29,036 nt of DNA from a virus, in the IMG/VR virus record IMGVR_UViG_3300020213_001063, positions 1 to 29,036 of that record. One strand, given 5' to 3'. Positions within the stretch are counted from its first letter, which is position 1. Every line of letters begins with the position of its first letter. Made by a program: the position numbers and the translations under genes. Positions 4,754-21,468 of this stretch are shown one piece after another. The notes below the pieces were generated by a model, which saw nothing but the letters and a program-made list of their open reading frames with translations, did no database searches and was not told the origin of the DNA.

Positions 4754-5185
4754 TCAGTCCTGCCCGAGCGCGGTCGCGCCCAGCCCCATCACAAAGTGCA
4801 GCACATGCGCCGCCAGAAGCGTCACGCCAAGCCGCACCGCAGCCCCGCTCTCCGGCTCAATCGGACGTCGCCGGAAGTAGAACCACAACGACCCGACCGT
4901 ACAGGCCGCAAAAAGCGAGAACACCAATACGGCAACGCCCAACGCAAACTGCAGGAAGGAGTTGAGCTTCGGGCTCACGGCAAAGCCGAAAATGATGATC
5001 GCCCAAACTACCGCGAACCAAGCAGATAGGCTGAACACAAACAACGCCACGCGGTTCGGATAATCACGCCACGTCAGCACCGCGCAAAACATGAGGCACG
5101 CGATCAGCACGTAGAAATAGTACGGCAAAATGAGGCTGGCGCCGACGACGGTCAGCACGACACCCGTAACCGGATCGCTGATCAT
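4754..5185 (-). CDS. Four-helix membrane protein following the muramidase-domain protein
   Basis: A 143-residue integral membrane protein with four hydrophobic segments: about 8-37, 45-68, 77-103 and 118-138. A basic loop (FYFRRRPIEPE) precedes the last. The ATG at 5185 has a GGGGG stretch a few bases upstream. It starts 18 bases after, and in the same frame as, the TAG stop of the upstream internal virion protein gene, with no other stop between them. It could be a holin, a membrane-embedded immunity protein for the upstream muramidase-like domain, or a superinfection-exclusion protein. No family was recognised. By analogy with the other large-protein/small-partner pairs in this window I favour a protective role, but a holin is equally possible because no other clear holin is seen. 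Confidence 0.6.
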   Translation of the reverse strand: MISDPVTGVVLTVVGASLILPYYFYVLIACLMFCAVLTWRDYPNRVALFVFSLSAWFAVVWAIIIFGFAVSPKLNSFLQFALGVAVLVFSLFAACTVGSLWFYFRRRPIEPESGAAVRLGVTLLAAHVLHFVMGLGATALGQD

Positions 5186-5203
5186 ATGCCCCCAATAGTC
5201 CGC

Positions 5204-7489
5204 CTAAAGCGGATGCATCTGCTGCCGGATGAATCCGGCATTGACCCTATGACGCTTGCCGGATTCGCCCGGCTCAGGCGAGTAGTAACCGTCGCGTTTC
5301 ATATCCTCGTCGTACCTCGCGCGAATTCGCTCGCGGCCTTGATTGTAGTACTCGACGATCAATGCGTCACGGTCCTCGATTGCCATACGCCCCCACGCAT
5401 CGGGGATTTTGCTCTCGAACCAGCGCGTCGCCTCTTCCACCATCAGGCCGGCAAAAGCGGCGGTGGCGGGTGCGCGCGCTGACCCCAAATCGTGCGCAAG
5501 CACATCATACGCGTTGTTGTATTTCTTGAGACCCAGCGGGTCGGAGTTGGGATATCTCTGGTTATACTCGCGCAACATCCGGATGGCCGTATGGAGACGG
5601 ATCTTGCCGTGTCCGATGTCGAGCGTCGCCGGATACCGGGCCTTGGTGATCCCGGTGGTCACCATATCGGCGATGACACCAAACCCCGTCTGGGGATCGC
5701 CGGCGAGCGGATTCCGCGCCAGCTCCTGCTCCCAAGCGTCGTAGTCGGCCGCAATGTCCTTGTGCGTCTTTCGACTTAGTATCAGCCACTTGAAGAAGGA
5801 CTGACCGTCCTCCAGCAGTCCGCGGCGTCGCGCATCGTCAAGCTCCTCTGCGATGCACCCGCCGATGGCCGTCTCACTCACGCCGAGCTTTTGGGCGACA
5901 TCGAGAATGGGCTGCCGATAGTCTCGTACGGTCTGCAGGTCCGCGTCGTCATAGAGACGCGCATCACGCCGCCCCGAAGGCCCCGGTGTCACCCCACCGG
6001 GGATGATCCCGCCATATGGACTTCCATAATCCAATTCGGAGGCTTTGGCCCGTCCGTCATCGACATAGGGCCCTCGATCCTCGACAATCTTGTCGCGTTC
6101 CGGCCGGTAGAGAAGGTCACGCGGCTCGATGTCGACGGCTTCACGCAACGTGTCCCAGAACGCGGCGCCATCCAAGCGAACATCAAAGGCATGCCGTCGC
6201 GACTCTTGTTGTTCCGGCGTAAGAGACGCGGCCGCCTCGATCCTCTTCACGGCCGCATCGTCGCTGAATCCCGCGTGGGTCAACGCACCGAAATCGTGGC
6301 CGAACGCACGGATGTCGGGCGGCGCCCATTCGAGCAATCCGTGCGCCGGATCGCCCGCATCCTCCAGATCCATGAGCATGCGCCCCGCAAAAGCCCGCTT
6401 CCCGGCATCGCGCGCATACACGCCGCTGCGAATGGACTCGCGCACCACGTTCGGCGTGTGACTTGCCGCCCGAGAGATCCACGCCATGCGATGACGCGCA
6501 GGTGTTGTCCAAACGCTCTCACCCACAACGGCCTTCACGAAGGCGTCTACGGCATCGGCACGCTCGATCCGATCCCACCTGGTCGCACGGCCGCGCAAGA
6601 TGTCGTGCGCGGTCATTGCGATCGCTTTGGCGTAGGTTTGCGCTTCTCGCACTGTCTTGTCGAACTCGGGCTCCAACCGCTCCGCGCTCTTCGCATCCCA
6701 ATCGTAAGCATCGATAATGTCGTGATAACCGCGCCACATCTCGCGAGGCTTCATCCCTGGCTTAACGCCGTAGACCCGAAGCCCAGCGCGGGTATCGAGC
6801 ATCTTCACCTGCGCGTTGATATGCGGCAGGTTTTGCTCGGTATCAAACGCACGCTGCGCTGCCGTCTCCAAGTCCTCGCGCGCCTCTTCCGAGATGCCGA
6901 GATCTTCCTGCGCATAACCTGCTCGGCTGCGCAGCATTTCCAACGCGGCCTTGGGATTGTCCCTGATGAGTCCGCGAAAATACTGCTCGTTCATGCGCTC
7001 GCGCGCCGCGGCAAGATCTTCGGCGTCGTCGTCGCCGACAATACCCGAGAGGCCGTCCGCCTCATCGCGATAGTCACCGATACGCGACGGGTCCTTGAAC
7101 GCCGCGTCCGCAAGATCGTCCATCGCTTCGCCAATATACGCCCGGCGCTGCCGCCGCCGCTCGTCTGCCAGCCGCCGCAGCTGATCGTCAAACACGTACG
7201 CCGGATAAGCCCGCCGCCCGCGCGCGGACGGATCGCGGTCGCTCTCCGAGGAATGCGGCGGCTCCGGCGCATCGTCGTCACTCGAACCCGGCGCGCGCCT
7301 GTGTTGGTCGCCCGCATCCGCCGCGTCCCGCGCGCCCTCATCGGCATCGTTACGCGCCTTGATCGCATCAGCCAAAGTAAGGAATGCGTCGGCGAATGGC
7401 GCGACGGTGTTGTACGGTTTTTGATATTCAAGCTTCCCGAGCTCAGCGATTTTCGAACCAAGTTTGGGTATCGTGATCTTGTTGGCCAT
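5204..7489 (-). CDS. Large internal virion protein with C-terminal muramidase/transglycosylase-like domain
   Basis: 761 residues from the ATG at 7489 (product begins MANKIT; GAGG lies about 11 bases upstream); an open frame extends back to a TTG at 7561 but looks non-coding. Residues 1 to about 500 are helical and charged, as expected of an ejected core protein (T7 gp15/gp16 position). After a Gly/Pro linker (around 490-505) the C-terminal ~235 residues resemble a lysozyme-like fold: AIGGCIAEELD near 541-551 with candidate catalytic E548/E549, an LDIGHGKIRLHTA segment near 623-635 like the conserved core of transglycosylases, and VEYYNQG at 712-718 like the terminal YNAG-type motif. T7 gp16 also carries a transglycosylase, but at its N-terminus. 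The domain could open peptidoglycan during entry or act as an antibacterial effector. The stop is TAG. Confidence 0.7.
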   Translation of the reverse strand: MANKITIPKLGSKIAELGKLEYQKPYNTVAPFADAFLTLADAIKARNDADEGARDAADAGDQHRRAPGSSDDDAPEPPHSSESDRDPSARGRRAYPAYVFDDQLRRLADERRRQRRAYIGEAMDDLADAAFKDPSRIGDYRDEADGLSGIVGDDDAEDLAAARERMNEQYFRGLIRDNPKAALEMLRSRAGYAQEDLGISEEAREDLETAAQRAFDTEQNLPHINAQVKMLDTRAGLRVYGVKPGMKPREMWRGYHDIIDAYDWDAKSAERLEPEFDKTVREAQTYAKAIAMTAHDILRGRATRWDRIERADAVDAFVKAVVGESVWTTPARHRMAWISRAASHTPNVVRESIRSGVYARDAGKRAFAGRMLMDLEDAGDPAHGLLEWAPPDIRAFGHDFGALTHAGFSDDAAVKRIEAAASLTPEQQESRRHAFDVRLDGAAFWDTLREAVDIEPRDLLYRPERDKIVEDRGPYVDDGRAKASELDYGSPYGGIIPGGVTPGPSGRRDARLYDDADLQTVRDYRQPILDVAQKLGVSETAIGGCIAEELDDARRRGLLEDGQSFFKWLILSRKTHKDIAADYDAWEQELARNPLAGDPQTGFGVIADMVTTGITKARYPATLDIGHGKIRLHTAIRMLREYNQRYPNSDPLGLKKYNNAYDVLAHDLGSARAPATAAFAGLMVEEATRWFESKIPDAWGRMAIEDRDALIVEYYNQGRERIRARYDEDMKRDGYYSPEPGESGKRHRVNAGFIRQQMHPL

Positions 7490-7504
7490 GCTGCGATCAG
7501 CCTC

Positions 7505-7545
7505 AAAAAACGTCGTGCGCCTTCGCGCGGCAAACGCCCCGCGCG
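7505..7545 (-). terminator. Possible weak terminator upstream of the internal virion protein
   Basis: On the minus strand a CGCGCGG / CCGCGCG stem (plus positions 7539-7545 and 7524-7530) with an 8-base loop is followed, after 13 further bases, by six T (plus AAAAAA at 7505-7510). The distance from stem to T-run is longer than ideal, although a second small GCGC stem bridges it. It would separate the membrane protein at 7639-7881 from the internal virion protein. Confidence 0.25.
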
Positions 7546-7638
7546 CCTTAAACCAGGACAAAGTTAGAGAAAGCAGATTATAGCGGCTTCAAGCGGCACC
7601 GCTTTTGGCGGCGTTGTCGCAAAAGGCGTCAGGCACAG

Positions 7639-7881
7639 TCAAAGATGGCGCTGCCGCGAAAACGCGACGTCAAGACCGACGGCGACGCCCCAGGCGACCG
7701 ACAAGCCTGCGATAGTGACCGTCGCCTCAATCACGCGCTCGACGCCCAGACCGCGAAACCAAGCCGCAACGGGAATGAGGCAGAGCGCCACCAACATATA
7801 AAGTGTTCCGCTCACAAACCCGCGCCAAAAGCGTTCGGCGCGGCTTGACTCGGCGTTCTCAGGAGGTGGGGTCTCTGTCAT
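7639..7881 (-). CDS. Small two-helix membrane protein, candidate immunity partner
   Basis: 80 residues from the ATG at 7881. The longer frame to 7938 would run deep into the upstream gene and is not preferred. An acidic, proline-rich cytoplasmic N-terminus (MTETPPPENAE) is followed by two hydrophobic segments at about 23-42 and 50-72, then a short basic tail. The start lies 23 bases inside the end of the upstream gene, so the two are translationally coupled. A tiny inner-membrane protein coupled to a large protein with a hydrophobic, glycine-zipper C-terminal domain is the usual layout for a pore-former and its immunity protein. No family was recognised; a holin is the alternative. Confidence 0.55.
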   Translation of the reverse strand: MTETPPPENAESSRAERFWRGFVSGTLYMLVALCLIPVAAWFRGLGVERVIEATVTIAGLSVAWGVAVGLDVAFSRQRHL

Positions 7882-9226
7882 CCTGCCAAAACCAGTCGTT
7901 GAATTGCTGCTCCAAGTAGTCCATCGCAGCATCCGCATTCTCGATGAAGCGACTGAAGCCCTCCATGAAAAGCTTCAACGCTTCTTGGGAAAGGAACTCT
8001 ACTTCTACCGCAAACACTTCCTTGATCAGCTTAGATACTAACTTACCAGAAGCCTGCGACCAATCCGTGCTACCAAATTTATTCCGGAATCTCTCCTTAC
8101 CATACTTCCCCCAAAGGCCGGCGCCAACGCCAGCGCCGATGGCGCCCCAATAATTGAGTTCGGCCTCCTTACCTTCCTCAGCTGTCACCATGTCTTCAAC
8201 CAAGGATCCAAGGACTGCGATTCCCGCCTCCAACTTCCAAGGCTCGACCGGCGAAAGATCCACAAACCCACTTGCGGCACCCTGAGCCCCGGAGATAAGC
8301 ACGCTCCGCCAATCTGGATACTCCCATTTGTCACGCGGCTTGAGCGAATTTGCGGCCATACTAACCACGATGTCAGCACCGGCCGAATAGGCCGCACTCT
8401 TCGCCGCCTTGATTAGACGCTCGCGCGCAATCCAACCGACGATCATCGGAATGGCCGGTAGGATGACTTCTCTCGCTTGCCCGCCCCCGCGATTGCGGGG
8501 CAATCCCCTGCGGTCTCCGTCACTGGACGGTACGTATTGCACCACGTGGTCACTCTCCACCGCCGCACGCGCCGGTCCACGAATGGTACCGTCGCGGCCT
8601 TCGATTTCGTCCCTTAGCGCTAACGCCATACGCCCACCGGGACCGCCGTCATCCGGAGTCGATCGAGTGATCGCCTGCGCATAAGGCTTCAGGTTGGTCC
8701 GAGATAAGTCTTCAGCAAGTTGGCGTCCCACCGGACTATCCGCGGGAGGGCGCGCTGAATAATGAGCATCCGCTAAAGAGATTCGCTGCATCGATCCCGC
8801 AACTTGCTGCGCCACATGGGCCCTGACGCTGGGATCGAGGCGTGAGATCAGGGAGTCGAACGCCGGCTGTTTCTTCTGTCTGTCCATTTGGTCGAAGACG
8901 CGCGCCATCGAGCGCGCAAGATCGTTCGGTAGAGGCAAGTGTTCGAACACGCCACGCCCACCAGCCGCGTTGTCCTTGCGCCAGCTATGGATGACTGAGT
9001 CAAGCGATGCCGCGTGCGCGCCCACGTCACCACTCCAAAGCGCGCGCAACGCCTGATGCTGCTTCGCCGTCGTCTCGGCCGACCGTGGTGCCTCTTCTGG
9101 GTCATCACTCCCATCGGAAGGTTTCTCCAAGACATGAGCTTTGCGACTCGCCGCGCGGCCAAGAACGCTCGGTCGCAGCGCGTCATTGTGCAAGCTCCAG
9201 TCATATCGGCCCACATGGTTCAGCAT
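7859..9226 (-). CDS. Modular effector-like protein: shared helical N-domain plus hydrophobic C-terminal domain
   Basis: 455 residues; the ATG at 9226 follows a strong GAGGAG site. Residues about 57-150 match residues 52-146 of the M23 peptidase protein at 20083-21468: over 57 ungapped positions (GRGVF...QVAGSM against GVPVF...EVAQLM) I count 18 identities by eye, preceded by a common GD-GA motif. A low-complexity linker with charged and glycine stretches covers about 160-250. The C-terminal part (about 255-455) has several moderately hydrophobic stretches (255-268, 311-322, 335-348) and a glycine-zipper run AIGAGVGAGLWG (362-373), as in membrane-active toxins. It has no signal peptide. It lies between the secreted protein gene and a coupled two-helix membrane protein. 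I infer virion cargo with a membrane-active domain; the catalytic or pore function is not proven by any motif. Confidence 0.6.
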   Translation of the reverse strand: MLNHVGRYDWSLHNDALRPSVLGRAASRKAHVLEKPSDGSDDPEEAPRSAETTAKQHQALRALWSGDVGAHAASLDSVIHSWRKDNAAGGRGVFEHLPLPNDLARSMARVFDQMDRQKKQPAFDSLISRLDPSVRAHVAQQVAGSMQRISLADAHYSARPPADSPVGRQLAEDLSRTNLKPYAQAITRSTPDDGGPGGRMALALRDEIEGRDGTIRGPARAAVESDHVVQYVPSSDGDRRGLPRNRGGGQAREVILPAIPMIVGWIARERLIKAAKSAAYSAGADIVVSMAANSLKPRDKWEYPDWRSVLISGAQGAASGFVDLSPVEPWKLEAGIAVLGSLVEDMVTAEEGKEAELNYWGAIGAGVGAGLWGKYGKERFRNKFGSTDWSQASGKLVSKLIKEVFAVEVEFLSQEALKLFMEGFSRFIENADAAMDYLEQQFNDWFWQDDRDPTS

Positions 9227-9320: not shown

Positions 9321-9899
9321 TTACGTGCAGACGATGTTGAGTCCTTGCCACGAACAGGCGTGCGACGGTGGCGGCGGTGGGTTCGAGTGCCCGCGCTGCA
9401 GTTCGTCGCGCCAACTGTCGGCGAGCGCAACGCGCTCAACACTGGTCGCCGCGAAGTAAGCGCGCTCACGTGTCTGAAACAACGCAAGCGCCTCAGCGGA
9501 AAGCCCATTCGCCGCACCATACGAAATGGCGCCCTGCTGTAAATAATCGAACACCTGATCGGCCTGGTAGTAGAGTGTCGCGTAAGCCGGCTCCAACAAC
9601 GGATGATGCGACTTCACCGCCGCCAACCGCAGCTCGCGGCAAGGCCGCGTCTTCCGCACCCGAAGCCGCAAAGCGGCGGCCTCGCCCTCGTCCGCAAAAC
9701 GCGCATCAGCCAACTGCGCCGCCGACGGACTACGCCGCGCAAACTTCGCATTCACGACGGCAAGCGCGGGATCCCGGTCCATGGTCTGGAAACACGCCGC
9801 GATCTCCTTTTCGGCGTCCGGCCATGTCGCCGCCTCCGCGACGACGGCGGCCGCCATGGCGATTAGCGCAAAGGAGACGACCCTCAGAACATGCATCAT
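9321..9899 (-). CDS. Secreted periplasmic protein, lysozyme-inhibitor-like layout
   Basis: About 192 residues from the ATG at 9899 (TTG at 9902 and ATG at 9896 are alternatives). A clear signal peptide (hydrophobic run LRVVSFALIAMAAAVVAEA, cleavage near AEA|ATW) exports it. The mature protein is helical with four cysteines: one in IAACF, one in TRPCREL and two at the end in CSWQGLNIVC, suggesting two disulfides. Phage structural genes are not normally exported, so this is a moron or protective gene in the late cluster. It follows the gp14-like gene and precedes the modular effector-like gene. A periplasmic inhibitor of a muramidase (for example the domain in 5204-7489) would fit, but no inhibitor family was positively recognised. 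Confidence 0.65.
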   Translation of the reverse strand: MMHVLRVVSFALIAMAAAVVAEAATWPDAEKEIAACFQTMDRDPALAVVNAKFARRSPSAAQLADARFADEGEAAALRLRVRKTRPCRELRLAAVKSHHPLLEPAYATLYYQADQVFDYLQQGAISYGAANGLSAEALALFQTRERAYFAATSVERVALADSWRDELQRGHSNPPPPPSHACSWQGLNIVCT

Positions 9900-9963: not shown

Positions 9964-10416
9964 CTAGCCAATGCCTTTGCCAGCCCACCAATCCGTTCGA
10001 ATCCCCTGCGAGGCAAAGCCGACGACTCCGCCGAGGATCGACTCATACATCGCGTTTCGCCCGGCCTCCCGCATGCGCTTTGCCTGCACGTCTCCGTGAT
10101 ACCGCGCGAGTTGGCCCTCATGCTCTTTCACCAACGCGGCATAGTCGAGGTTGCCGGCCGCCTCCGCAATGACGTCGACCAACGACGCGCTATCGCCGGC
10201 AACGCCGCGTGCGCCGAACGCGGCACGGAACGTGCCGATGTCCCGCTGATTGTTGTAACGAATCTGCTCGGCCTCTGCGACAGCCGACTGCTGCGCATAA
10301 CGCGCCTCATTTTGGGCCTGAATCGCATTCGCCTTGGCCGCTTTATTCGCGGCAGCACCCTGCGCGATCTGCGCCCCAAACTGAACCCCGGCCATAACGC
10401 CTGCGAGTGAACACAT
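9964..10416 (-). CDS. Internal virion protein, T7 gp14-like
   Basis: 150 residues from the ATG at 10416, which follows a GTGAGG site with ideal spacing; an upstream GTG-type extension to 10449 is not needed. The N-terminus MCSLAGVMAGVQFGAQIAQGAAANKAAK is an Ala/Gly-rich amphipathic or membrane-inserting helix. A long Gln/Ala/Arg helix follows, with the AFGARGVAGDSASLVDVI core typical of the small internal virion proteins of podoviruses (FGA-GV-G-S), then a second helix and a Gly-rich C-terminus. Proteins of this type are ejected first and form the outer-membrane part of the ejection channel. Its place after tail tubular protein B and before larger internal proteins matches T7-like gene order. 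The stop is TAG. Confidence 0.8.
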   Translation of the reverse strand: MCSLAGVMAGVQFGAQIAQGAAANKAAKANAIQAQNEARYAQQSAVAEAEQIRYNNQRDIGTFRAAFGARGVAGDSASLVDVIAEAAGNLDYAALVKEHEGQLARYHGDVQAKRMREAGRNAMYESILGGVVGFASQGIRTDWWAGKGIG

Positions 10417-10481: not shown

Positions 10482-10895
10482 TCACCCAAGCAGCGGCGGC
10501 ATCATCGGCGTTAGCGCGAACGACGCACTTTCTCGATCTGATCGATATTCTGGGAGTCTTGCGTGTGCCAGAAACTGTCCAAGCACCGGCTCGGCATCCA
10601 TGAACACCTCCCAGGCCGTTGCGGGCAGCACGTAGAGAAATGGCGATGTCTCGATCTCGACGTGCTTGATATCGTCACGAAGACGTCCCGCCAACGCTTC
10701 AGCATCCGCAAATAATGTGAAGCGCAAGCGCACGGCGACGATCGATCCCCACGGCATCGGACCCTCACCCTCGGCTTTCCGATAGGCGTCGATGCGTGAC
10801 AACATCCGGTCGACGTTCCAACGTTTGATCCGCGCTTCGCCTGGAGGAAAACGCGTCAGCGAAAAATCGATGATATCGTCGCCCGAGAATACCAA
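10482..10895 (-). CDS. Uncharacterised phage protein, 5' end uncertain
   Basis: About 137 residues. The only in-frame start before the coding-looking part is TTG at 10895, with no good ribosome site; a TAG at 10926-10928 closes the frame just upstream. The product is mixed alpha/beta, with several Trp, Phe and Arg and no signal peptide or membrane segment (motifs FSGDDIIDFSLTRFPPGE at the start, ALTPMMPPLLG at the end). The interval 10929-11067 holds two other frames that look protein-like: one from ATG 11067 (with GGGAG), and another reading PNAAAVRVETLDGSVLSPAW into this gene. The gene may therefore have lost its 5' part by frameshifts. It lies between tail tubular protein B and the gp14-like protein, so it is probably a minor virion or assembly protein. 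Confidence 0.5.
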   Translation of the reverse strand: MVFSGDDIIDFSLTRFPPGEARIKRWNVDRMLSRIDAYRKAEGEGPMPWGSIVAVRLRFTLFADAEALAGRLRDDIKHVEIETSPFLYVLPATAWEVFMDAEPVLGQFLAHARLPEYRSDRESASFALTPMMPPLLG

Positions 10896-11094: not shown

Positions 11095-13770
11095 CTACCC
11101 ATTCACCACGCTCATCACCGGCATGATCGACAGCACGTCGAGCGGCATCGGGTCGTACTGCACGAACGCCACCCGCCCATCGAGGTCGAAGTCGCTGGCG
11201 AGGAAGACGTCGAAATCGCCGGAGCGGATCGGTGGGCTTGCGTCCATCGCGTCGCCTTGCTCGCGCCGCACGAGGTCTTCCATCTGGCTCTCGTCGGCCG
11301 GCCCCGCGAGCCCACCGATGCCCAGATGCACGCGCACCGTCAGACGCAGCACGCGCTTCGTCTTGCCTTGCGCGCCGCCCATCGCCGGCGCGTCGAGGCG
11401 CAGCGTGCGCAATCGGCTGATATAGGTAAGCCCAGCCCACACATTGGTCGCCGGATTCTCAAGCGCGGTCTTGCCGCCCGTCACGACACGATCTGGCTGC
11501 AGCGCGCCGTCGGCAACAACCTTCACAGTCCGCCCCTCAAGATGGAACAAGCCTGACAGAGCGCTCGTCGCCGGCCCCGCGTAACGCAGCGCGCTGTCGA
11601 GATAGCCCATCAGACTCTTGTCGTGCGGATGCGTCGGCTCGAACGGCGGCGCCAGATATTCCACGTAGCGTTTGGTCACGCCGTTGATCGTCCGCCGCAC
11701 GATCACCCACAGATCGTCGATGGTGCCGTCGGGCGAAGGGATGACCGCGATGCTCTCGACGAAGCCGTCCATCGGATGCTTCGCCCAGGCATAAACCTGC
11801 TGCTCGCGCCGGTACGTCATCGACATCAGCACGCCGTCGCTGCGCAGGGCCCACAACAGCGACGCCGGGTTCTTCGCCCACGCGACCCGCACGATCGTCG
11901 AATTCAGAGTGAGATGCTCCGCCAGTTCCAAGAGGTCCGTGGCGACGTAGGCGCCGACATCCGACTGATTGGCCAGCGAAAACACTTTGCGTCCCGAGCG
12001 ATTGACGAACAGCGTCTCGACGCCGACCTTCGCCGGCGGCACACCGTTCGAACCTTCGCCCGATTGCGGCACGATGCGTGTGTTCGTGGGCGTGATCGGA
12101 TCGCCAAGCCCGCCGCCGAACGCCGCAAACTCCTGGCTCAGCGTCCCGATCGCAAGATCCGATCCCGACGTGATCCAGCGGATGGGATCGGCCTGGTTCG
12201 CCGCAATATTGTAGCCGATGGTTTCGTCGTCGCGCGTCCCTGGTAGGAAGTTGCCGAAGTCCGCCGACGCCGATGCCCAAAATCCGAACGGCTGCTGCAG
12301 CGTATTGCCGAAAACAAGGCGCTGCTCGTGCAACGCGACGACCGCGGGATACCCGCGCGCTTCCGAGAACGCACTGTGCGCCCAGAGCCACGTCGCATAA
12401 CGGCGCGCATTGCCGCCCGAGGTATAAGTTCCAAGAGCGATCGAATTGGCAAGATCGAACGTGTTTGCCGTGACGTTGATGATCTTCCAATCGCCATTGG
12501 CCCCCGTCATGCCGCCCACGCTCTCGATGGAGACGTAGTCCCCCTCGTTGTACCCGTGCGCTGCCAACGTCACCCTGAACAAGCCGCTGCTGTTCGCCAC
12601 GTTCGTGATAGTCTTAAACGGCGGCCCGAGCCCGTTGCAGAGATACGTGATGATGGTGCCCGACATGTTCTTCGAGTTGCCGAACGTGTCCAACCGGACA
12701 ATCGCCCAGCGCGAATGCAGATAGCGCCACTTCTTGTAGTTTGTGCCTGACCCGCCCGTCGGATTGTCCCAGGCGTCGCCTTCCGTATGCGAGGGGATCA
12801 CGCTACCGGTCGACGTGCCGGCGCCCACATTGACGAGCTCATAGACGTTGCCGCTGCTCGAAACCTGCGTGCCTAGCGCGGTCGAGAGCGCCAGCGTTGA
12901 CGCCCAAGGGCTCACTGCCAATTGATCCAAATACATTTCGCGCATGAAGAAATAGCTGCCTTCATGCGCTTTGGTGAATATCGGACCGCTCGCTTTGATC
13001 GTCATGCTGTCGCCGGGTTGATTGCCGGACGGCATGCACATCACCCGGAGCGAGTCGTCACCGTTTAGCGCCGCGAATGGCCCCCGTTCCAGCGGCAGCG
13101 CTGCAAGAGTCCATGCGGTATGACCCGTCCGCGTCAGCGAATATGGCGGACGATTCGGATGCGCGATGTACAGCGTATCGGCCGATTGCGATACGAATAG
13201 CCCATCCAGCTGAGCTTCGGGATATGGCGACGGAATCTCATAAATCCTCGATACGGTCCCGCCCGTCGTGTAGGTGTCGTAATCGCTCGAATCCACGCCC
13301 GACAGTTCGAAGGTGTCGGCGGTCTTGTTGGCGACCGTGAACTCGCGATTGTTCGCCTGCCCCATGCCGCCGACGCCCGCCACAATGATCTTGTCGCCGT
13401 TGACGAAACCGTGCGCGGTCGCGGTTACGACCGCGGGATTCGCTTTGCTGACGCCGCTGATCGTCACCGTCGACGATGTAATCGGCGCATAGTCCTTCCA
13501 GAACCTGATATACCCGTCGCCAAACTCCAGCATGTAAGCCTGCACCGTCGAGAACACGAACGGGATCAGCCGCGACTGCTTCGCGTGCGCCCGCGTCTCG
13601 CCGGCGAACCGCGTGCCGTGCCGCCGCATCACGCCGCCTTCCGGCCGCACGATATAGTTCTCGACCGTCTCCGCTCCCGCCGGATACTTCTGCAAATCGA
13701 CGCGCCCATAGAGACGCGGGCTCAGCTCGCCCGCAACGAACGAGGGCTGTTGTATGTTGACGCGCGCCAT
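11095..13770 (-). CDS. Tail tubular protein B (T7 gp12-like nozzle protein)
   Basis: 891 residues. The N-terminus (QQPSFVAGELSPRLYGRVDLQKY, then AETVENYIVRPEGGVMRRHGTRF) is the hallmark of the tail-tubular-B / phage stabilisation protein family, which forms the nozzle of short-tailed phages. It has two related beta inserts: about residues 100-175 (TAHGF-GD...GGMGQAN...TF-LSGVDSSDY-TYTTGG) and about 385-457 (AAHGY-GD...GGMTGAN...TFDL...GTYTSGG), the small module seen repeatedly in such proteins. The ATG at 13770 overlaps the TAA of tail tubular A by one base (TAATG) and is preceded by GAGGT. The rest is beta-rich and forms the fibre-docking part of the tail. Confidence 0.92.
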   Translation of the reverse strand: MARVNIQQPSFVAGELSPRLYGRVDLQKYPAGAETVENYIVRPEGGVMRRHGTRFAGETRAHAKQSRLIPFVFSTVQAYMLEFGDGYIRFWKDYAPITSSTVTISGVSKANPAVVTATAHGFVNGDKIIVAGVGGMGQANNREFTVANKTADTFELSGVDSSDYDTYTTGGTVSRIYEIPSPYPEAQLDGLFVSQSADTLYIAHPNRPPYSLTRTGHTAWTLAALPLERGPFAALNGDDSLRVMCMPSGNQPGDSMTIKASGPIFTKAHEGSYFFMREMYLDQLAVSPWASTLALSTALGTQVSSSGNVYELVNVGAGTSTGSVIPSHTEGDAWDNPTGGSGTNYKKWRYLHSRWAIVRLDTFGNSKNMSGTIITYLCNGLGPPFKTITNVANSSGLFRVTLAAHGYNEGDYVSIESVGGMTGANGDWKIINVTANTFDLANSIALGTYTSGGNARRYATWLWAHSAFSEARGYPAVVALHEQRLVFGNTLQQPFGFWASASADFGNFLPGTRDDETIGYNIAANQADPIRWITSGSDLAIGTLSQEFAAFGGGLGDPITPTNTRIVPQSGEGSNGVPPAKVGVETLFVNRSGRKVFSLANQSDVGAYVATDLLELAEHLTLNSTIVRVAWAKNPASLLWALRSDGVLMSMTYRREQQVYAWAKHPMDGFVESIAVIPSPDGTIDDLWVIVRRTINGVTKRYVEYLAPPFEPTHPHDKSLMGYLDSALRYAGPATSALSGLFHLEGRTVKVVADGALQPDRVVTGGKTALENPATNVWAGLTYISRLRTLRLDAPAMGGAQGKTKRVLRLTVRVHLGIGGLAGPADESQMEDLVRREQGDAMDASPPIRSGDFDVFLASDFDLDGRVAFVQYDPMPLDVLSIMPVMSVVNG

Positions 13771-14390
13771 TACTCACCTCGCCAATCGCGATAGACGCCG
13801 GCCCCGCCGTCAAGCCGGGCATCGGCCCAGCTGCCGCGCGGCAAGCTGTCGGGTTGCCCCTCTTGCGCATCGCGCCGCCGCGCCTCGACCAGCTTCGACT
13901 GATAGACCTGCCATAGCCCCTGCGCACGGCTGACGCTCTCGCTCAACTGCACGGCGATGTCGGACGCCACACGCGCTGACAGCGCTTCGACGAACAGCGG
14001 ATCGAACGCCGCCGTCTGTGTGACGAGCGCCGTGTACTTGATGAAGATCGGATCCCCTATATCGGTCAGGATCTGCCGCCCCTCGACGACCCACTTCTCC
14101 GCATCGCCGTCGAACACCGACCGCACGAGAAGACAGTCGGCTGGCAGATCGTAAGCGTTCGCGTACTCGAACGCCGGCGCGATGGCATTCTTCGGCAACT
14201 CCGCGCGCCGCGCCGCAAAATTCCAGTCATACGCGCGCAGACAAGCATCGCGCGCATACGGATAGCGCAGCTTGCACGCACGCGCCGCCTGCGACGCCTC
14301 GTCGATCGACGTGATCTGCGCCCCGCGCCCGATCTCCGCCAACGCCATGTTGCAAATCGCAACTTCGGAATACTCGCCCAAAGTCGGCAT
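13770..14390 (-). CDS. Tail tubular protein A (T7 gp11-like adaptor)
   Basis: 206 residues, the usual size for the podovirus adaptor that joins the portal to the nozzle. Diagnostic features are the N-terminal EVAICNMALAEIG segment, the central YPYARDACLRAYDWNFAARRAEL helix and loop, and the YDLPADCLLVRSVF strand, all typical of tail tubular A proteins. The C-terminal ~40 residues are Arg/Gly-rich and variable. It is directly upstream of tail tubular B with overlapping stop and start. The ATG at 14390 has an AAGGG site about 10 bases upstream. Confidence 0.92.
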   Translation of the reverse strand: MPTLGEYSEVAICNMALAEIGRGAQITSIDEASQAARACKLRYPYARDACLRAYDWNFAARRAELPKNAIAPAFEYANAYDLPADCLLVRSVFDGDAEKWVVEGRQILTDIGDPIFIKYTALVTQTAAFDPLFVEALSARVASDIAVQLSESVSRAQGLWQVYQSKLVEARRRDAQEGQPDSLPRGSWADARLDGGAGVYRDWRGE

Positions 14391-14452: not shown

Positions 14453-15040
14453 TTAGTACGGCGCGTCGCGCAATTTATAGACGAAGGCGTTGGACGTGAC
14501 GTCCACCACGTTCGCGGTCGGCCCGCGCGCTGCGGGTCTGTCGAAGGCGTGGAACTGTAACTCGATTTGCACCGCGCGCCCCCACGGCAGGTCCGGTTTC
14601 TTCTCCATCAGAAGGACACCCGACACATGCTGCATCATGGCGTGCAGACTCACGCGCACCAAGCGCGACTCGCCAGGCCGCAACACCGTTGGCGGCCTCG
14701 TCAAAGGCGCGCTGTCCGAATAGATGAGGCGGCCGGAAGATCCATAGCCGTACCAGCCGCTGCTCAGATAATCGGTGCGGCTCAACATGCGCCCGCGCAG
14801 GTCGCTGACTTTCCAATACAACATCCACGGCACGTCGCGCAGTGGCCGTTCGTAATCGATCTCGTACACGTCGATGAATCGTATCATGCACGCGTCGCTG
14901 ACATTGACGATCAGAATGCGAAGCTCATCACCTCGCACATCCAGAAACACATCGCCGTTCGCCGCCGGCCGTTCGCATGCCCGCGCGGTCGGACTGATAG
15001 CCCAGCAACATAGCAGCGCCAGTAAGAGTGCAAGCCGCAT
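14453..15040 (-). CDS. Secreted periplasmic protein, candidate immunity for the NlpC/P60-like protein
   Basis: 195 residues from the ATG at 15040, which has GAGGT at ideal spacing. A typical signal peptide (MRLALLLALLCCWAISPTARA) is followed by a beta-rich domain with a cysteine pair (C22 in ACERP and one in SDACMIRF), DVFLDVRGDELRILIVN strands and a central YLSSGWYGYGSSGRLIYS segment. It lies 60 bases downstream of, and on the same strand as, the large NlpC/P60-like protein gene, and before tail tubular A. An exported protein has no place in virion assembly, so it is best explained as a cargo or moron gene. A periplasmic inhibitor of the neighbouring peptidoglycan hydrolase is my inference. 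No family was recognised. Confidence 0.65.
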   Translation of the reverse strand: MRLALLLALLCCWAISPTARACERPAANGDVFLDVRGDELRILIVNVSDACMIRFIDVYEIDYERPLRDVPWMLYWKVSDLRGRMLSRTDYLSSGWYGYGSSGRLIYSDSAPLTRPPTVLRPGESRLVRVSLHAMMQHVSGVLLMEKKPDLPWGRAVQIELQFHAFDRPAARGPTANVVDVTSNAFVYKLRDAPY

Positions 15041-15100: not shown

Positions 15101-16555
15101 CTAACGTCGCCGACGGTGAAACTCCCACCGATAGCGGCGATCGCGGAGGTGCGGAAAGCGATTCTCAGGATCCGCCCCCGGCCATTGTTTATCGATATCG
15201 GTCTCAATCGGCCCTTCGTCGAGCGTTCCCCTTTTTCCGCGCACACGTATGCGCGGCCGCCCATTCACGACGGTGATCGAGGTGATGACCGCGGCATGGA
15301 CCGGCTTACCCTCCCTGTCGCGGTAAACAACGACATCACCTACCCGCGCGCCATCGCGAACGGGCTCATAGTCGTCCTCCAAGATGATGGCAATTTGGTC
15401 GGTTGGGCGTGTCTGCCCCTCCTCGTCGACTTGCGGGTCAATCCAGACCTCCCCATTCGCGAACACATATCCGAAACAATTCGTGTCCATTCGTCGTTCG
15501 CGCCCGCGGTTTCGCCGCGCAACAATCGGCCTGTCGTTGTCTGTCCTGATTGTGCCAAACGTCACCTCGTGCCACTGCCTGTTCTCCCGCACCCGATCGT
15601 CATACAGCTTCTCAAACTTGACCCGACCGCGCTCACGCTTGACGAGTTCCACAACTTCGGCGCGGTCGTCGTCGGGTCGATAGGGAAGCGTCCGCACGCT
15701 CCCGCTTGCCTCCTCACGGTCCAGGTCAGGCGGACTCGGTTCGGCCTCATCCGCGGGCACCACGGTCGTGTCGTCGCCATCCGGTGCAGCGTGAGAGCGC
15801 TCGGGACCGGCATTTCCGCCTGACGACGACGCGAACATCCCCTCGGTACCGGCCCTCGCCGCCGTTGCGACCGCGTAGCCTGCAGCGCTGGCGATCGCAG
15901 AGCTTTCGGGGCTGCCGCTATCGTGAGAGCCTTCCGGCGCGAGCACCTCGCTCGCCGGATGCCGCCCACCTTCCGTTTGCGCTGGCGCGGGTTCGCCGCT
16001 TGAAGGGCGGTCGGCCTCGACGGCGCGCAGAAGATCGTTGGCCGTGCGCGTCATCGCGCCGGCATCGCCAGAGGTCTTCGCCGTGTCCCAACGCTTGCGC
16101 GCATCGGCAACCGCTTCGGATTCCGGAGAGGCGGGCTTCTCGCGCGGCATCGGCGGCGGCGCTTTGTGTGCCCCTGCGTGCCGGGCGCTCGGCCGCAAGT
16201 ACGACTCAAGCGGATGGACATGCTCCTTGAACACATAACCGGACGGCCCCTTCTCCACCGTCCAGCGGTCCTTCACCTGCCGCTTCATCATGTTGAAGGC
16301 GGCCCCCATGTTGGCCGTGCGCACATACCCCTCGCGCGCCGCGTCGATCGCGAACTCGAGCAGTTCGCGCGGAAACACCGTACCCTCCTGCTGCCGGTAG
16401 ACCTTGGTGGTCCGCGCCATCGAACCCGCGCGCTGCGCCGCGATCGGCTTCTCGCGCGGTGGCGCGTCGACGGGCTCGACCGGCGCATTGCGCAACGTAC
16501 CCGGCACGCCGTCGTCATCATCATCGTCGAAGGAAGAAGTGCCGCTCGGCCTCAT
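15101..16555 (-). CDS. Modular protein with C-terminal NlpC/P60-like cysteine-histidine domain
   Basis: 484 residues. Three parts can be seen. Residues 1-45 are acidic and low-complexity (DDDDDD). Residues about 46-125 form a compact domain starting MARTTKVYRQQEG. Residues about 135-330 are a Pro/Ser/Ala-rich linker containing a short GDAGA-helix motif at 163-180, which resembles the start of the N-domain shared by the proteins at 7859 and 20083. The C-terminus carries DTNCFGY with catalytic-type C360, VGDVVVYRDREG at 405-416 and H420 in PVHAAVI, the order of an NlpC/P60-type peptidase or amidase. It starts just after a terminator following the capsid operon, so it probably has its own promoter or is reached by read-through. 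A secreted partner gene follows at 60 bases. I infer a peptidoglycan-cutting cargo protein. Confidence 0.65.
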   Translation of the reverse strand: MRPSGTSSFDDDDDDGVPGTLRNAPVEPVDAPPREKPIAAQRAGSMARTTKVYRQQEGTVFPRELLEFAIDAAREGYVRTANMGAAFNMMKRQVKDRWTVEKGPSGYVFKEHVHPLESYLRPSARHAGAHKAPPPMPREKPASPESEAVADARKRWDTAKTSGDAGAMTRTANDLLRAVEADRPSSGEPAPAQTEGGRHPASEVLAPEGSHDSGSPESSAIASAAGYAVATAARAGTEGMFASSSGGNAGPERSHAAPDGDDTTVVPADEAEPSPPDLDREEASGSVRTLPYRPDDDRAEVVELVKRERGRVKFEKLYDDRVRENRQWHEVTFGTIRTDNDRPIVARRNRGRERRMDTNCFGYVFANGEVWIDPQVDEEGQTRPTDQIAIILEDDYEPVRDGARVGDVVVYRDREGKPVHAAVITSITVVNGRPRIRVRGKRGTLDEGPIETDIDKQWPGADPENRFPHLRDRRYRWEFHRRRR

Positions 16556-16634: not shown

Positions 16635-17057
16635 TCAGGTTTGCGCGAAATAGAGATCGACGAACAACGTGCCCGACGCCGGCAGCGACGCCGCGGCGAT
16701 CGTGATGAACACGGTCTCGTCGGTCGTCAGCTTCGCCGACGCGGCCGCAACCACGCCGAACGTCTCGTAAGCCGTTGTCGACGTGAACACCGCCGCGGAG
16801 CGGTATTTCCCGGTCGTACCGGAAACGCCGATCGCGACCGTGGAGCTGCCAAGCGAGGTGTCGCTGCGCAGCGTACCGTACAAGAACGTCTCGCCCGCCG
16901 ACGGATAAGCGACCACGATCGTGTCCGAGGTCGTTTGCGATGCCAGCGTAATCTTCTCGCGATAGACGCGCACGTGCCCGCCTTGAACGCTGCCGTCGAC
17001 CTGGCCCACGGGCGTGGTCGAACGCGGCGTCGTATAGGCGCCGTAAAGAACTGCCAT
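16635..17057 (-). CDS. Capsid decoration or stabilisation-like protein
   Basis: A 140-residue, Thr/Ser/Val/Ala-rich, all-beta protein without cysteines, membrane segments or signal peptide (for example VYREKITLASQTTSDTIVVAYPSAGETFLYG). It follows the major capsid gene after 27 bases, has a strong AGGAG site upstream of ATG 17057, and is followed by the terminator that closes the capsid operon. A small beta protein co-transcribed with the capsid protein most often decorates or cements the shell; a head-tail joining role is the alternative. Function is inferred from position and composition. Confidence 0.65.
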   Translation of the reverse strand: MAVLYGAYTTPRSTTPVGQVDGSVQGGHVRVYREKITLASQTTSDTIVVAYPSAGETFLYGTLRSDTSLGSSTVAIGVSGTTGKYRSAAVFTSTTAYETFGVVAAASAKLTTDETVFITIAAASLPASGTLFVDLYFAQT

Positions 17058-17084
17058 GTGATGTCTCCTACTAGATGATCGCGA

Positions 17085-17966
17085 TTATTCGAGGCAGGCG
17101 ACTTCGACGACGCCGACTTCTTGCATGCGCGTGGCCCCGACCGACATCGAGTAAAACACCTGCGTCGCATAGTTCTTGTCGGCGCGTTCGGTGATGCGCG
17201 CTTGCGGCTGAGCGCCGATGCCAAGCACCACCTGGTCCTTCTGCCACGCCACCACCGCGCGGTCCGATCCGGTGATGAACGGCAGGATCTTTCCACCGTC
17301 GATGCGCAACCCGTCGACGCGGATGAAGTTGAAGCCGAGGAATGTCTCGAGCTCGCCCTGTACCAACGCCTTCACCGTATTGAAGTCGGCCGAGGTCACG
17401 GTCGTGTTGTTGAGCAGATCTTCAAGCTGCTCCGACGTCACCGCGATATAGCGGCCCTCGTTGTCGATATCGGCCGCGTCCATCAGCTTCTTCGCCGAAA
17501 TCAGCTTGGCCAACGTCAACCCCGAAGCCGCCACTGCGATCTTCTGCCCGGCAGGCAGCGTCACCGCCGTCGACCCCGTCTCGCCCGTAAAGGACGTGCC
17601 GCGGATCGCATCGACGATGACTTCGTCGATCGCGCGACCCATCGCGTTCGCCGCCGACTTCGCATAGGTCGACGTCGGATCGATCAACATACGGACTTTG
17701 TCCTCCTGATCGATCATGTCGGCCCAGTCGAAATCCTCCAGCGAACAACGCCGGCGCGCGTGCGGCGTATCCATGCGCGGCGTATCCGAGTGCCGCGAGG
17801 TACGCCGGCGTGCCGCCGTCGCGCCGATCTGGTCGAAAAAGGATTGCTTGCCGGTCACGTTCTCGACGCGCACGGCATCGCGCAGCTTCGAACCTTTCTG
17901 CTGCGCCAGCATCATCACGTTCGCCGCATACTGCTGAACGAACGCGGTCGTCACTTGAGTAGACAT
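17085..17966 (-). CDS. Major capsid protein, HK97-fold (podovirus capsid family)
   Basis: 293 residues, typical for the compact capsid family of Bordetella BPP-1-like and related podoviruses. Recognisable segments are the N-terminal MSTQVTTAFVQQYAANVMMLAQQKGSKL helix, the DWADMIDQEDKVRMLIDPTSTYA region leading to the long spine helix AANAMGRAIDEVIVDAI (about 107-127), the SGLTLAKLISAKKLMDAADI helix, and C-terminal strands with FLGFNFIRVDGLRIDGG and ITERADKNYATQVFYSMSVGATRMQEVGVVEV. The fold is the HK97 capsid fold. The ATG is preceded by GGAGAG. It is separated from its scaffold gene by about 3.6 kb of inserted genes, which is unusual. Confidence 0.9.
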   Translation of the reverse strand: MSTQVTTAFVQQYAANVMMLAQQKGSKLRDAVRVENVTGKQSFFDQIGATAARRRTSRHSDTPRMDTPHARRRCSLEDFDWADMIDQEDKVRMLIDPTSTYAKSAANAMGRAIDEVIVDAIRGTSFTGETGSTAVTLPAGQKIAVAASGLTLAKLISAKKLMDAADIDNEGRYIAVTSEQLEDLLNNTTVTSADFNTVKALVQGELETFLGFNFIRVDGLRIDGGKILPFITGSDRAVVAWQKDQVVLGIGAQPQARITERADKNYATQVFYSMSVGATRMQEVGVVEVACLE

Positions 17967-18300: not shown

Positions 18301-19152
18301 ATGTCGAACGCACGCTTGTTGGCACTTCTGCTCTCATTCGTATCTCTGGTCGCGCCGTCCACGGCGAGATCGGACGACCACCTGCTCGACCTCTTCAAGA
18401 AGCATTCGCACAAAGTCCTGTCCTGCGAACCGAAGGTGTTGCATGACGATTCGATACTCACCATCCGGATGCCTGAACCTCACGGCGACTTTCTAGTCAT
18501 AGCCTCAGACTGGCACCAGATTCCGGTTCACGTCGTGTATCCGCGGCCTCGATGGCCATTGATGCTGAAGGCAGCCAAGTTCCGCACTTTATCCACGGTA
18601 AGCTGGAAGGTTCGCGACATTCGGGGAGTCTTCTACGGCCTCCAAAATGCGTTCTGGACGACAGGCCGCCACGCGATCTTCGTTGGATCGGGCTTCGATA
18701 CGCCGAACCCAATCGTCGACGGTTGGTGCGAGGTCGAATATGTAGAGTCCGATCCTCCCCGGCCATCCAACCGTCATAGCCCGGGACCCTACCGCGAAGG
18801 CGAAGCGTGGAACAAAATGAAGTGCTCGCCGTCGACCGTCACACGCGATTCGGTACTCACCATCAACATGCCCTATCCGCACGGTTCTTACTTGGCAGTA
18901 TTCCCGGATGGAAACTACGCCGAAAGAGACAAGCATTTCATCTATCCTGCAACGGCACACCCAGCTGTTGAAGGTTTCTACCGGATGCGGTCTCTGTCGA
19001 TCCGCGTCAATGATATCCGGGTCTGGGAAAATGGCCGACAGCGGCCTGTGTTCGACAAACCTGGCCGCTACATGATCAACCTGGGGAGTCATTTCGAGAC
19101 CGACGGTGGTCCGACAATCGAAGGCTGGTGTCGCGTCATCCTCAAGCGATGA
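18301..19152 (+). CDS. Secreted protein with two copies of a periplasmic domain, candidate immunity protein
   Basis: 283 residues with a signal peptide (residues 1-22, hydrophobic LLALLLSFVSLVAPSTA). Two homologous domains follow, at about 40-150 and 172-281. Each begins with a Cys in (S/K)C-P, then S-LTI-MP-PHG-(F/Y)L-V, a V/I-YP strand, a DIR motif, (T)GR(H/Y), and ends in (V/E)GWC-V. The two cysteines per domain probably form a disulfide. The same domain occurs once in the protein at 19643-20086. A GGGAG site precedes the ATG. It runs opposite to the surrounding virion genes, so it can be expressed in the silent prophage, and it converges on the decayed M23 remnant with a 19-base gap. A periplasmic inhibitor of M23-type peptidase is inferred from genetic linkage only. 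Confidence 0.75.
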   Translation: MSNARLLALLLSFVSLVAPSTARSDDHLLDLFKKHSHKVLSCEPKVLHDDSILTIRMPEPHGDFLVIASDWHQIPVHVVYPRPRWPLMLKAAKFRTLSTVSWKVRDIRGVFYGLQNAFWTTGRHAIFVGSGFDTPNPIVDGWCEVEYVESDPPRPSNRHSPGPYREGEAWNKMKCSPSTVTRDSVLTINMPYPHGSYLAVFPDGNYAERDKHFIYPATAHPAVEGFYRMRSLSIRVNDIRVWENGRQRPVFDKPGRYMINLGSHFETDGGPTIEGWCRVILKR

Positions 19153-19171
19153 TGGCAAGCGTCCAATTCTA

Positions 19172-19545
19172 CTAAGAGCGGTCCTCCCGCGTTGGCTGCT
19201 GCCCCGTGTAGCCTTCCGGCTTGAGCCTGCGAGGCGGCCGTTGATAACCCAAACCGGTCAGCGGATCGCTCTGGGTTCTTGCCGTCGTGGCAGGACTGTG
19301 CGGACTCGGCCCTTGCAGCGGCTTCATTGTTTCAGAATCTACCGGCGTCCCCGGCGGGTAGTAGGAAATATGTGTATGCGCAGGAACACGCGACCCACCC
19401 TTCTTTTTGCGCGACCCGTCGGACACACCGATCATCTGACCCGCGTAGACTTCATCACCCGCCTCCAAACCTTCCAAGGCGCCTGTATGTGCGAACCTAC
19501 GATAGAGCCGTCATCGAGCAAGACGATTCAATTGCGATTGGCTGC
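19172..19545 (-). pseudogene. Decayed M23 peptidase, C-terminal remnant
   Basis: The minus strand encodes a strong match to the C-terminal half of the M23 protein at 20083-21468, from GALEGLEAGDEVYAGQMIGVSDGS through PAHTHISYYPPG (the H-x-H zinc motif) to PEGYTG near the end. Upstream, the homologous segment LLDDGSIVG continues in another frame: one base is missing near 19495 (GG then TTC). Further back there is an in-frame TGA at 19528-19530 where the family has an aromatic or aliphatic residue (N-stop-IVLLDDGS), and two more stops at 19546-19551. The N-terminal domain and the first zinc-ligand motif are absent. The gene therefore cannot make an active peptidase. It remains convergent with its former partner gene 18301-19152, which is intact. 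Confidence 0.75.
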
Positions 19546-19642
19546 CTATCAGGTGTCGGCGCCGGCGCTGGCCCGGTCGACACAATTTCGCCTCAACTGG
19601 TTGCTGTGCTTACACCGTGGATTTGTGTGAGGTCACAGCATA

Positions 19643-20086
19643 ATGCGATCCGTCATTCTACAAACCGTTTTTGCCATCGGCGCGCTTGCTTTGGTTTCGG
19701 CGGCGCCAGACGACGCCGGCGCACGTTCATCCCGCGACACCATGAAGTGCGCTCCAAAGACCGTGAACCAGCACAGCACGCTGAAAATCACCCTGCCCTA
19801 CCCTCACGGCCCTTATCTCGCGGTGTATGACAAACACAACAACCCTGGAACGTTCATCGTCTATCCGCATCCGGCAGTGGAACTTATGATCTCGCCCGAA
19901 GCGTTTCCGCAGATGAAGGAGGTGGAATTCAACGTTGGCGAGATCAAAGGGCATGACGGAGCCAAGTTTGCGCCGGTATTTGTCCAGCCAGGCCGCTACC
20001 GAATTCTTGTCGCCTGGGATCTCGAGACTGGGGCCTCTACGGTGGATGGCGAGTGCAGCGTATCCTATTCGCCCCTTCCTCGTTAG
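19643..20086 (+). CDS. Secreted single-domain protein, candidate immunity for the M23 peptidase
   Basis: 147 residues with a signal peptide (hydrophobic ILQTVFAIGALALVSA, cleavage near residues 20-28) and one copy of the domain that is doubled in 18301-19152. It reads MKCAPKTV, S-LKITLPYPHGPYLAVY, FIVYPHPAVE, QPGRYRI and VDGECSV, with two cysteines at the two ends of the domain. GAGGT lies 10 bases before the ATG. It is convergent with the intact M23 gene, and the two stop codons overlap: forward TAG at 20084-20086 and reverse TAA at 20083-20085. Expression from the opposite strand would let a lysogen make it while the late genes are off. The immunity role is inferred from linkage and from the duplication of the whole pair. 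Confidence 0.75.
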   Translation: MRSVILQTVFAIGALALVSAAPDDAGARSSRDTMKCAPKTVNQHSTLKITLPYPHGPYLAVYDKHNNPGTFIVYPHPAVELMISPEAFPQMKEVEFNVGEIKGHDGAKFAPVFVQPGRYRILVAWDLETGASTVDGECSVSYSPLPR

Positions 20087-21468
20087 TTCGGCGGCCATGG
20101 AATTCGTTTCCTGGGTAGGAACCGCACCGGCGTGCGCCCGGTGTAGCCTTCCGGGTTCAGCCTTCGCGCATCGCGCATTAGTTCAAGGCCGGACAAGGGA
20201 TCGCTCTGCAAACGAGCCGGAGCATTTGGATCGCGAGCATTCGGTGCTGACAGCGGTTTCTTGGTAACGGGATCGACTGGTGATCCCGGAGGATAGTAAG
20301 AAATGTGTGTGTGAGGCGCCGGTGTCTGAGCGGTTGAGTCCCAAGTTCCGGAACCGTCGGACACGCCAATCTGCTGACCAGTATAGACCTCATCACCTTC
20401 TTGCAGGCCCTTGAGTGCTCCAGTATGCGAGAAACCAACGATACTTCCGTCATCGTTCAAGATGAAAATCTGATTACCGCCCTCTGCGGAGTTTTCTTCG
20501 ATCCGAAGAATGGTTCCATTTCTCGGCGAGAAGACCGGTCCATTCGGTTCGCGGTTCCGAAGGTCGACCCCGGGATGGAACTCCACCCGCCCATTGCGCT
20601 CTCTCAGATCATACGGGCTTATGATTTCAACCTCGGTTTTCCCGTCCTCCGGCTGCACCGGCCATGAAACACGATCTTTATACGGATCATCCGGGTGCGG
20701 TGCTTTGCCACTCAGAAAGATCGGTGGGTTGCCCTTCGCCTGCTGCTTTGCCCTCTCGTCCAGCGTGAGCTTCTCTCGCGGCGTGCGAAACACGCCGCCA
20801 AGGCTTGTCCATGCCTCACGGTTCTCGTAGTCGTCACGAATTCGGCCGCCTTCCTGCGTTCGCTCCTGAAACTCTCGGTCCCACGAGCGCTCGTTGGGTC
20901 CAGCGTTTGCCGGCACGCGCGGCCGTTCCCCAAACAACGAGAATCTTGGCTGCGGCTTCCACGTCGGCGCGTGTGGGATGCCTTGAACAGATCCTCCGGA
21001 CCCGGAACGAGCGCCAGTGCCGGGCAGTGACGGCATGAGCTGAGCTACCTCTTGCGAAACGCCTCGGCGCACGCCGGGTTCAAAAGCCTCCACGAGGCGC
21101 TCGAACTCCTTCGCTTGGTGAGGCTTCGGCAAACGCCGAAGAGCATCGGCGACATGGCCCGCAAGTTGAGGAGGCAGGATTGGACGCGCGAACACGGGCA
21201 CGCCTTGCTGTTGAAAGTGGGCGCCGGTTAGGCTCAAAATGTCCGCCGCCTGTTTGCGGGCTCCCGCGTCATCACCATGTTGCCAATTCCAGAAAAACTC
21301 GTCTATCGCCTCGTCGATCTTCGGGACTTCAATTGGCCGCCGAAAGCGCGCATCGACTTGATCATCGGTTCCAAACCGATCTTCCGGCGCCCGCAAATCG
21401 AGCGGCCCGTCGTATCGCACGCCACTCCCAAAGCCCTGCGGGCCACGACTGCGTAAGCGCATCGCCAT
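20083..21468 (-). CDS. Modular effector-like protein with C-terminal M23 metallopeptidase
   Basis: 461 residues (ATG at 21468; the ATG at 21462 has better spacing from GGAG and is an alternative). The N-terminus is basic and Gly-rich. Residues 52-146 form the helical domain shared with the protein at 7859-9226 (GDDAGA, GVPVF, LPPQLAGHVADAL, PGVRRGVSQEVAQLM). A linker of about 100 residues follows. The M23 (LytM/lysostaphin) domain covers about 265-400: HPGVD supplies H298 and D302, FSHTG H348, and PHTHISYY H386/H388, a complete zinc and catalytic set. M23 enzymes cut peptidoglycan cross-bridges. It has no signal peptide, so it must be delivered by another route, such as the virion or cell lysis. 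It lies between the scaffold and capsid genes and is paired with a convergent secreted protein gene. Confidence 0.85.
   Translation of the reverse strand: MAMRLRSRGPQGFGSGVRYDGPLDLRAPEDRFGTDDQVDARFRRPIEVPKIDEAIDEFFWNWQHGDDAGARKQAADILSLTGAHFQQQGVPVFARPILPPQLAGHVADALRRLPKPHQAKEFERLVEAFEPGVRRGVSQEVAQLMPSLPGTGARSGSGGSVQGIPHAPTWKPQPRFSLFGERPRVPANAGPNERSWDREFQERTQEGGRIRDDYENREAWTSLGGVFRTPREKLTLDERAKQQAKGNPPIFLSGKAPHPDDPYKDRVSWPVQPEDGKTEVEIISPYDLRERNGRVEFHPGVDLRNREPNGPVFSPRNGTILRIEENSAEGGNQIFILNDDGSIVGFSHTGALKGLQEGDEVYTGQQIGVSDGSGTWDSTAQTPAPHTHISYYPPGSPVDPVTKKPLSAPNARDPNAPARLQSDPLSGLELMRDARRLNPEGYTGRTPVRFLPRKRIPWPPN

Follow-up and report, generated by a model that had tools for sequence, protein, structure and literature searches.

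Why should the head and tail genes of a short-tailed phage be interspersed with large proteins whose C-terminal ends resemble envelope-attacking domains, each of them next to a small protein that is exported or lies in the membrane? The question is raised by the window analysed here, a viral fragment from IMG/VR of 29,036 nucleotides (29 kb). A sequence-only reading had proposed a podovirus-derived antibacterial delivery system, with entry lysins and a block on superinfection as its alternative. The explanation we favour, to which we give a probability of about two in three, is a podovirus-derived, probably domesticated particle locus with a polymorphic toxin-immunity system, in which packaging, delivery, toxicity and neutralisation are predicted from the genes.

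Relatives were gathered by using the capsid, scaffold and TubB proteins as queries, and comprise viral contigs as well as prophage-like loci of alphaproteobacterial genomes; when protein E (described below) was used to look for close relatives, the identical contig was all that it returned. These genomes were assembled from metagenomes; beyond the window, genes were called with a simple script, and some of the relatives' genes contain frameshifts.

Virion genes of the window

Read from right to left, the minus strand of the window encodes a portal, a scaffold, a major capsid protein, tail tubular proteins A and B (TubA and TubB), a gp14-like protein, two ejection-type proteins, a fibre and lysis genes, which together form a podovirus-type set of head and tail genes. 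The portal gene (27318-29036) matches phrog_332 on both of its parts and is split by an in-frame TAG at 28536-28538; relatives L006, L010 and L033-L035 have intact copies. Given this split, the window's copy of the locus may be dead, or misread through a sequencing error. Beyond it on the same strand lie a scaffold-like protein (21569-22432, phrog_3742), the major capsid protein (17085-17966, phrog_3437, 4e-89), a conserved, small, decoration-like protein recognised after the capsid gene by comparison with relatives (16635-17057), TubA (13770-14390, from position and homologues), TubB (11095-13770, phrog_376), a gp14-like internal virion protein (9964-10413, phrog_418, 5e-17), a tail fibre with a T7-fibre-type N-terminus (1818-3170, phrog_1640) and, in the lysis module, an M15-type endolysin that was recognised by eye from its sequence pattern and is conserved in relatives (294-707). 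The genes that had been called T7-like are podovirus-type virion genes by their PHROG matches, but the nearest isolated phages by capsid are the HTVC010P-type Pelagibacter podoviruses and not T7 itself.

Several further genes share this region. A RidA-like gene on the opposite strand within the virion cluster (23283-23666, plus strand) occupies the same place in genomes G001, G002 and G003, and a 2OG-Fe(II) oxygenase-like gene (723-1457, phrog_61) between the fibre and lysin genes is conserved in G001 and G002. A small exported protein at 23726-24148 has a repeated cysteine/tryptophan motif (RVCCKRG.DWWST..QCRRSGGY). Another exported protein (9321-9896, minus strand) belongs to a family found repeatedly in the company of gp14-like or tail genes, independently of any single toxin, and that was duplicated jointly with these genes in G013 and G002. 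Because of this company we dropped it as a candidate immunity protein for protein C; it may be a separate exclusion factor. Among the relatives, a "stripped" sublineage (L036, L043-L053, L071, L003, L004, L007 and L008) retains, within the reach of its contigs, the portal, scaffold, capsid, tail tube, fibre and lysis genes, and lacks gp14, the ejection proteins and all cargo wherever a contig covers the site.

Carrier proteins and their partners

The four large proteins singled out by the sequence-only reading, and their small neighbours, were found where it had placed them. The simple hydropathy rule that we applied detects no N-terminal signal in any large protein and assigns all four partners to the exported or membrane class, as had been claimed. 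Protein E (20083-21468, minus strand), between the scaffold and major capsid genes, joins a carrier module (residues about 20-200), common to proteins of G001, G002 and G005 in an all-against-all comparison, to a C-terminal M23 peptidase (Pfam, 8e-12). Its partner (19643-20086, plus strand), exported by hydropathy, meets it 3'-to-3' with a 4-base overlap and has a homologue adjoining an M23 homologue in G001. Between this partner and the capsid gene lie two elements that the first reading had missed: a remnant M23 C-terminus (19172-19477, minus strand), 60% identical to residues 352-449 of E, and, again 3'-to-3', a second, paralogous exported partner composed of two repeats of the 19643 family (18301-19152, plus strand). 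As judged by sequence comparison, the two form a duplicated toxin-end/partner cassette akin to the orphan modules of CDI and Rhs systems.

Protein D (15101-16555), identified by comparison with relatives between the decoration-like gene and TubA, combines a D-type carrier (residues 1-220) with an NlpC/P60-like C-terminus and has no counterpart at the same site in near relatives. Its end has a Cys/His pattern (N-C-x-G-Y ... H) that is kept in a relative, and gave no significant match to Pfam or the PDB. The exported partner of D (14453-15040) has homologues in G001 and G013 that adjoin this same end, and a remnant of a partner of this family, likewise missed earlier, lies between TubB and gp14 (10482-10895). 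Protein C (7859-9226) has an E-type carrier module (E-values 3e-8 to 9e-4) and a glycine-rich hydrophobic C-terminus that weakly resembles G002.rc 40325-40738 (5e-5) and found no match in a family search; its membrane partner (7639-7881) has two predicted membrane segments. Protein B (5204-7489) unites an ejection-protein-like carrier (residues about 100-460) with a C-terminus weakly matching lysozyme g (3wyh, E 0.004), and is followed by a membrane partner with homologues in G005 and G002 (4754-5185) and by A, a paralogue of B without a toxin end (3246-4712). All of these genes of C, D and B, with A, lie on the minus strand. The ends of B and D gave poor AlphaFold models (pLDDT 41-43). Among the labels given earlier to the four ends, M23 is borne out by Pfam; NlpC-like, muramidase-like and glycine-zipper, for D, B and C, respectively, were not confirmed by family matches and are plausible assignments.

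E-type and D-type carriers have a common motif of about 39 residues (hhalign E 9e-5, probability 60), and B-type carriers weakly match (probability 64) the protein after gp14 of relatives; in L026 and L070, this protein is an internal virion protein that contains an endolysin domain. Neither the E-type module nor protein B found a match among 50,697 phage records. Across 147 related genomes, the E-type carrier occurred only where at least parts of the locus are present (6/9 versus 0/138), several of the nine being counted as locus-bearing from fragments alone.

Exchange of toxin ends among relatives

Near relatives either lack D and its partner, with the tail genes directly abutting, or have different cargo in these places. 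L033/G001 has an M23-bearing E homologue between TubB and gp14, beside an 18301-type partner; here, the end of the window's D is fused to ejection protein B and followed by a 14453-type partner. At the E site, G002 has the E carrier with another M23 family, and G005 has it with an AHH nuclease (Pfam, 8e-10), after which comes an Imm11-type protein that has no signal (5e-4; its G002 homologue 6e-7, above the cut-off). An AHH remnant with Imm11 in G002 forms an orphan cassette of toxin end and immunity gene. Carriers also occur in rows of up to four: three stand directly after the terminase in G013, with near-identical N-termini of about 150 residues and different ends, and two tandem carriers in G005 follow the same pattern of near-identical N-termini and different ends. 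Some cassettes are next to the terminase, outside the structural operon, and several carriers lie within the late operon on the coding strand.

At least nine families of C-terminal ends occur on the same carrier N-termini, including three of M23, an NlpC-like family, two of zincins, an AHH nuclease and a coiled coil; a lipase end (Lipase_3, above the cut-off) also occurs on these carriers. The zincin ends of G001/L035 and G002/G013 are counted apart because a single family was not demonstrable, and the two have related partners, as do M23 families b and c. The end of G002.rc 56192-57664 has a sub-threshold match to the ATLF family. In addition, partner-like genes from three families stand in line at G002.rc 45107-48274 with no toxins among them, forming a poly-immunity island, and exported beta-propeller-like proteins adjoin carriers with lipase and other ends (G005.rc 20911-30373 and G002.rc 54830-56062); these are likely to be a further partner family.

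Pairing of ends with partners

In all-against-all comparisons, N-termini and ends cluster independently, and ends and partners cluster together. Across 22 occurrences, which were chosen by adjacency and given family labels by hand from the same comparisons, recurring ends share a partner family in 17 of 17 same-end comparisons, even where carrier and site differ. Not one of 200,000 shuffles equalled this value (shuffle mean 2.0, in a statistic that ignores the relatedness of the genomes), and the concordance persists when each genome contributes a single copy. Of the partners, 30 of 34 count as exported or membrane proteins, compared with 132 of 316 background genes, and none of the toxins has a signal. 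The compartment of the partner also matches the type of toxin: the Imm11-type partner of the AHH nuclease is cytosolic, whereas the partners of types that act on the wall or membrane are exported or located in the membrane, which supports a toxin-immunity interpretation.

The pairs proposed in the window fared unevenly in the relatives. The M23/19643-type and NlpC-like/14453-type pairs recur elsewhere, the latter on a different carrier, and for these two a toxin-immunity relationship is strongly supported by the sequence comparisons. The complete glycine-zipper and muramidase-like pairs were not found again, though their partners or ends have relatives. With constant N-termini and varied ends, an adjacent partner of matching family and orphan cassettes, the locus is, by its gene organisation, a polymorphic toxin-immunity system in which the partner is predicted to neutralise the end.

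Alternatively, the end enzymes could open the wall for the entry of phage DNA, while the exported partners of a lysogen block the enzymes of incoming virions. This would account for the position of B where ejection proteins sit, and where L026 and L070 have their endolysin-domain proteins; for the PDB chain named Gp16, which the M23 end matches most closely; and for the placement of the partners where such enzymes would act. It sits poorly, however, with the nuclease and its Imm11-type partner, the lipase and the zincins that ride on the same carriers, with carriers in rows of up to four, and with near relatives that keep their tail genes but have no carriers at these sites. We consider it quite unlikely for the locus as a whole. 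It does explain B taken alone, and B may be an entry lysin.

Probable residence of the locus in its hosts

The terminase and portal enclose the same host genes in five or more related genomes. The series of genes runs from the terminase through cargo, a dipeptidase, an "LRQTK" protein and a TonB-type protein to the portal, and is found, whole or in part, in G001, G002, G003, G011, G012 and G013, and in G003 the terminase abuts the dipeptidase, leaving the cargo site empty; RpoB is 95-96% identical among G001-G003. The structural genes are under purifying selection, with dN/dS of about 0.06-0.29. A search for tyrosine integrases found none on the three large cluster contigs, no early module lies in the cluster, and repressor-like and DnaB-like genes stand apart from it (12 kb away in G001). 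Genome G001 also provides an internal control. Its contig C19 (L202-L204) holds a compact cousin prophage with the terminase near the portal, an integrase fragment and no carriers, in contrast to the domesticated-looking locus, which does not have the contiguous terminase-portal-tail genes, tyrosine integrase and replication genes of an ordinary temperate podophage. The fixed order of host genes, the result of the tyrosine integrase search, the dN/dS values and the contrast with the cousin favour a resident element, similar to a gene transfer agent, over a mobile prophage. The locus is vertically inherited at a single, fixed position, as gene transfer agents are, and is probably a domesticated, GTA-like locus of an alphaproteobacterial lineage.

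These observations bear on two other explanations. One is an active, still mobile temperate phage whose MuF-like cargo arms its lysogens, consistent with the classification of the contig as viral by IMG/VR, with the intact terminase domains, capsid and lysis genes of several genomes and with the repressor and DnaB-like module near the cluster in G001. Host genes conserved between terminase and portal, the absence of a tyrosine integrase from three cluster contigs, the cluster's lack of an early module and the different appearance of the true prophage cousin make this unlikely. The other is that cassettes merely gather at hot spots of a prophage in decay, with lysis or a secretion system to deliver them. 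The portal stop in the window and an in-frame stop that interrupts TubB in G002 suggest that some copies may be dead, and these lesions speak for this explanation, as do the cassettes beside the terminase. But strong purifying selection on the structural genes, signal-less carriers confined to locus-bearing genomes and carriers encoded within the late operon argue against it, and of the alternatives we weighed it is the least likely.

Under the toxin-immunity reading of a resident particle locus, the non-secreted carriers (the E-type and D-type modules and ejection protein B) would be produced together with the head and tail proteins, and loaded into the particle, probably alongside the ejection machinery. 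On ejection they would pass, accompanying or replacing the DNA, into a target cell related to the producer. There the exchangeable ends would attack the envelope from the periplasm or, rarely, nucleic acid in the cytoplasm, and the adjacent partner, located in the compartment of its toxin, would protect the producer and its kin. The antibacterial delivery system of the sequence-only reading gains from vertical inheritance with host genes inside the locus and from the AHH/Imm11-type pair on the same carrier, while delivery by the particle is a step that we infer. The stronger proposal, that a podovirus-type particle was tamed as a dedicated interbacterial weapon ejecting replaceable toxins into kin or competitors, with self-immunity in the same locus, is a tentative one that we hold at somewhat under even odds. 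Such a weapon would be a short-tailed, capsid-bearing counterpart of tailocins and contractile injection systems.

Comparison with known systems

The nearest known kind is the MuF polymorphic toxins of temperate phages, which are capsid-linked and have adjacent immunity genes (Jamet 2017, PMC5576092; Bxa, PMC11699363). They resemble the present locus in having exchangeable toxin ends on a phage head protein, immunity genes alongside and suspected loading into the capsid. We rejected membership in this group since the carriers have no MuF match in Pfam or PHROGs and their genes do not adjoin the portal. Several carriers occur per locus: they lie between the scaffold and capsid genes or between the capsid and tail genes, form part of ejection-type proteins, or adjoin the terminase. 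Their ends are mostly of envelope type with exported partners, and the locus appears domesticated. The carriers, their positions, the envelope bias and the domesticated-looking podovirus-type locus are what is new.

Gene transfer agents (RcGTA; Caulobacter GTA, PMC9632790) are likewise vertically inherited, phage-derived particle genes without a mobility module of their own, but the present locus has a podovirus-type structural set, interleaved host genes and toxin-immunity cassettes. CDI and Rhs toxins (PMC3482391) share the constant N-terminus, the variable C-terminal toxin, orphan cassettes of toxin end and immunity gene, and the Imm11 and AHH families; unlike them, the carriers described here have neither a secretion signal nor RHS/CdiA architecture and are bound to phage structural genes. 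Finally, T7-like ejection proteins with wall hydrolase domains (phrog_342) are similar to B in its position after gp14 and its wall-hydrolase-like end, but here the end is exchanged between families, with a partner gene beside it. We found no description of such a locus in the open-access literature, and there is a substantial chance that it represents a new type of weapon.

If this is true, short-tailed phage particles would join the machines that bacteria have tamed for warfare, and loci resembling gene transfer agents would acquire a second possible role, the delivery of toxins. The carrier modules would be new means of loading proteins into podovirus capsids. Our findings also open to direct test the idea that toxins can ride on phage ejection proteins, and the idea that virion cargo acting on the envelope can be recognised by its exported immunity proteins.
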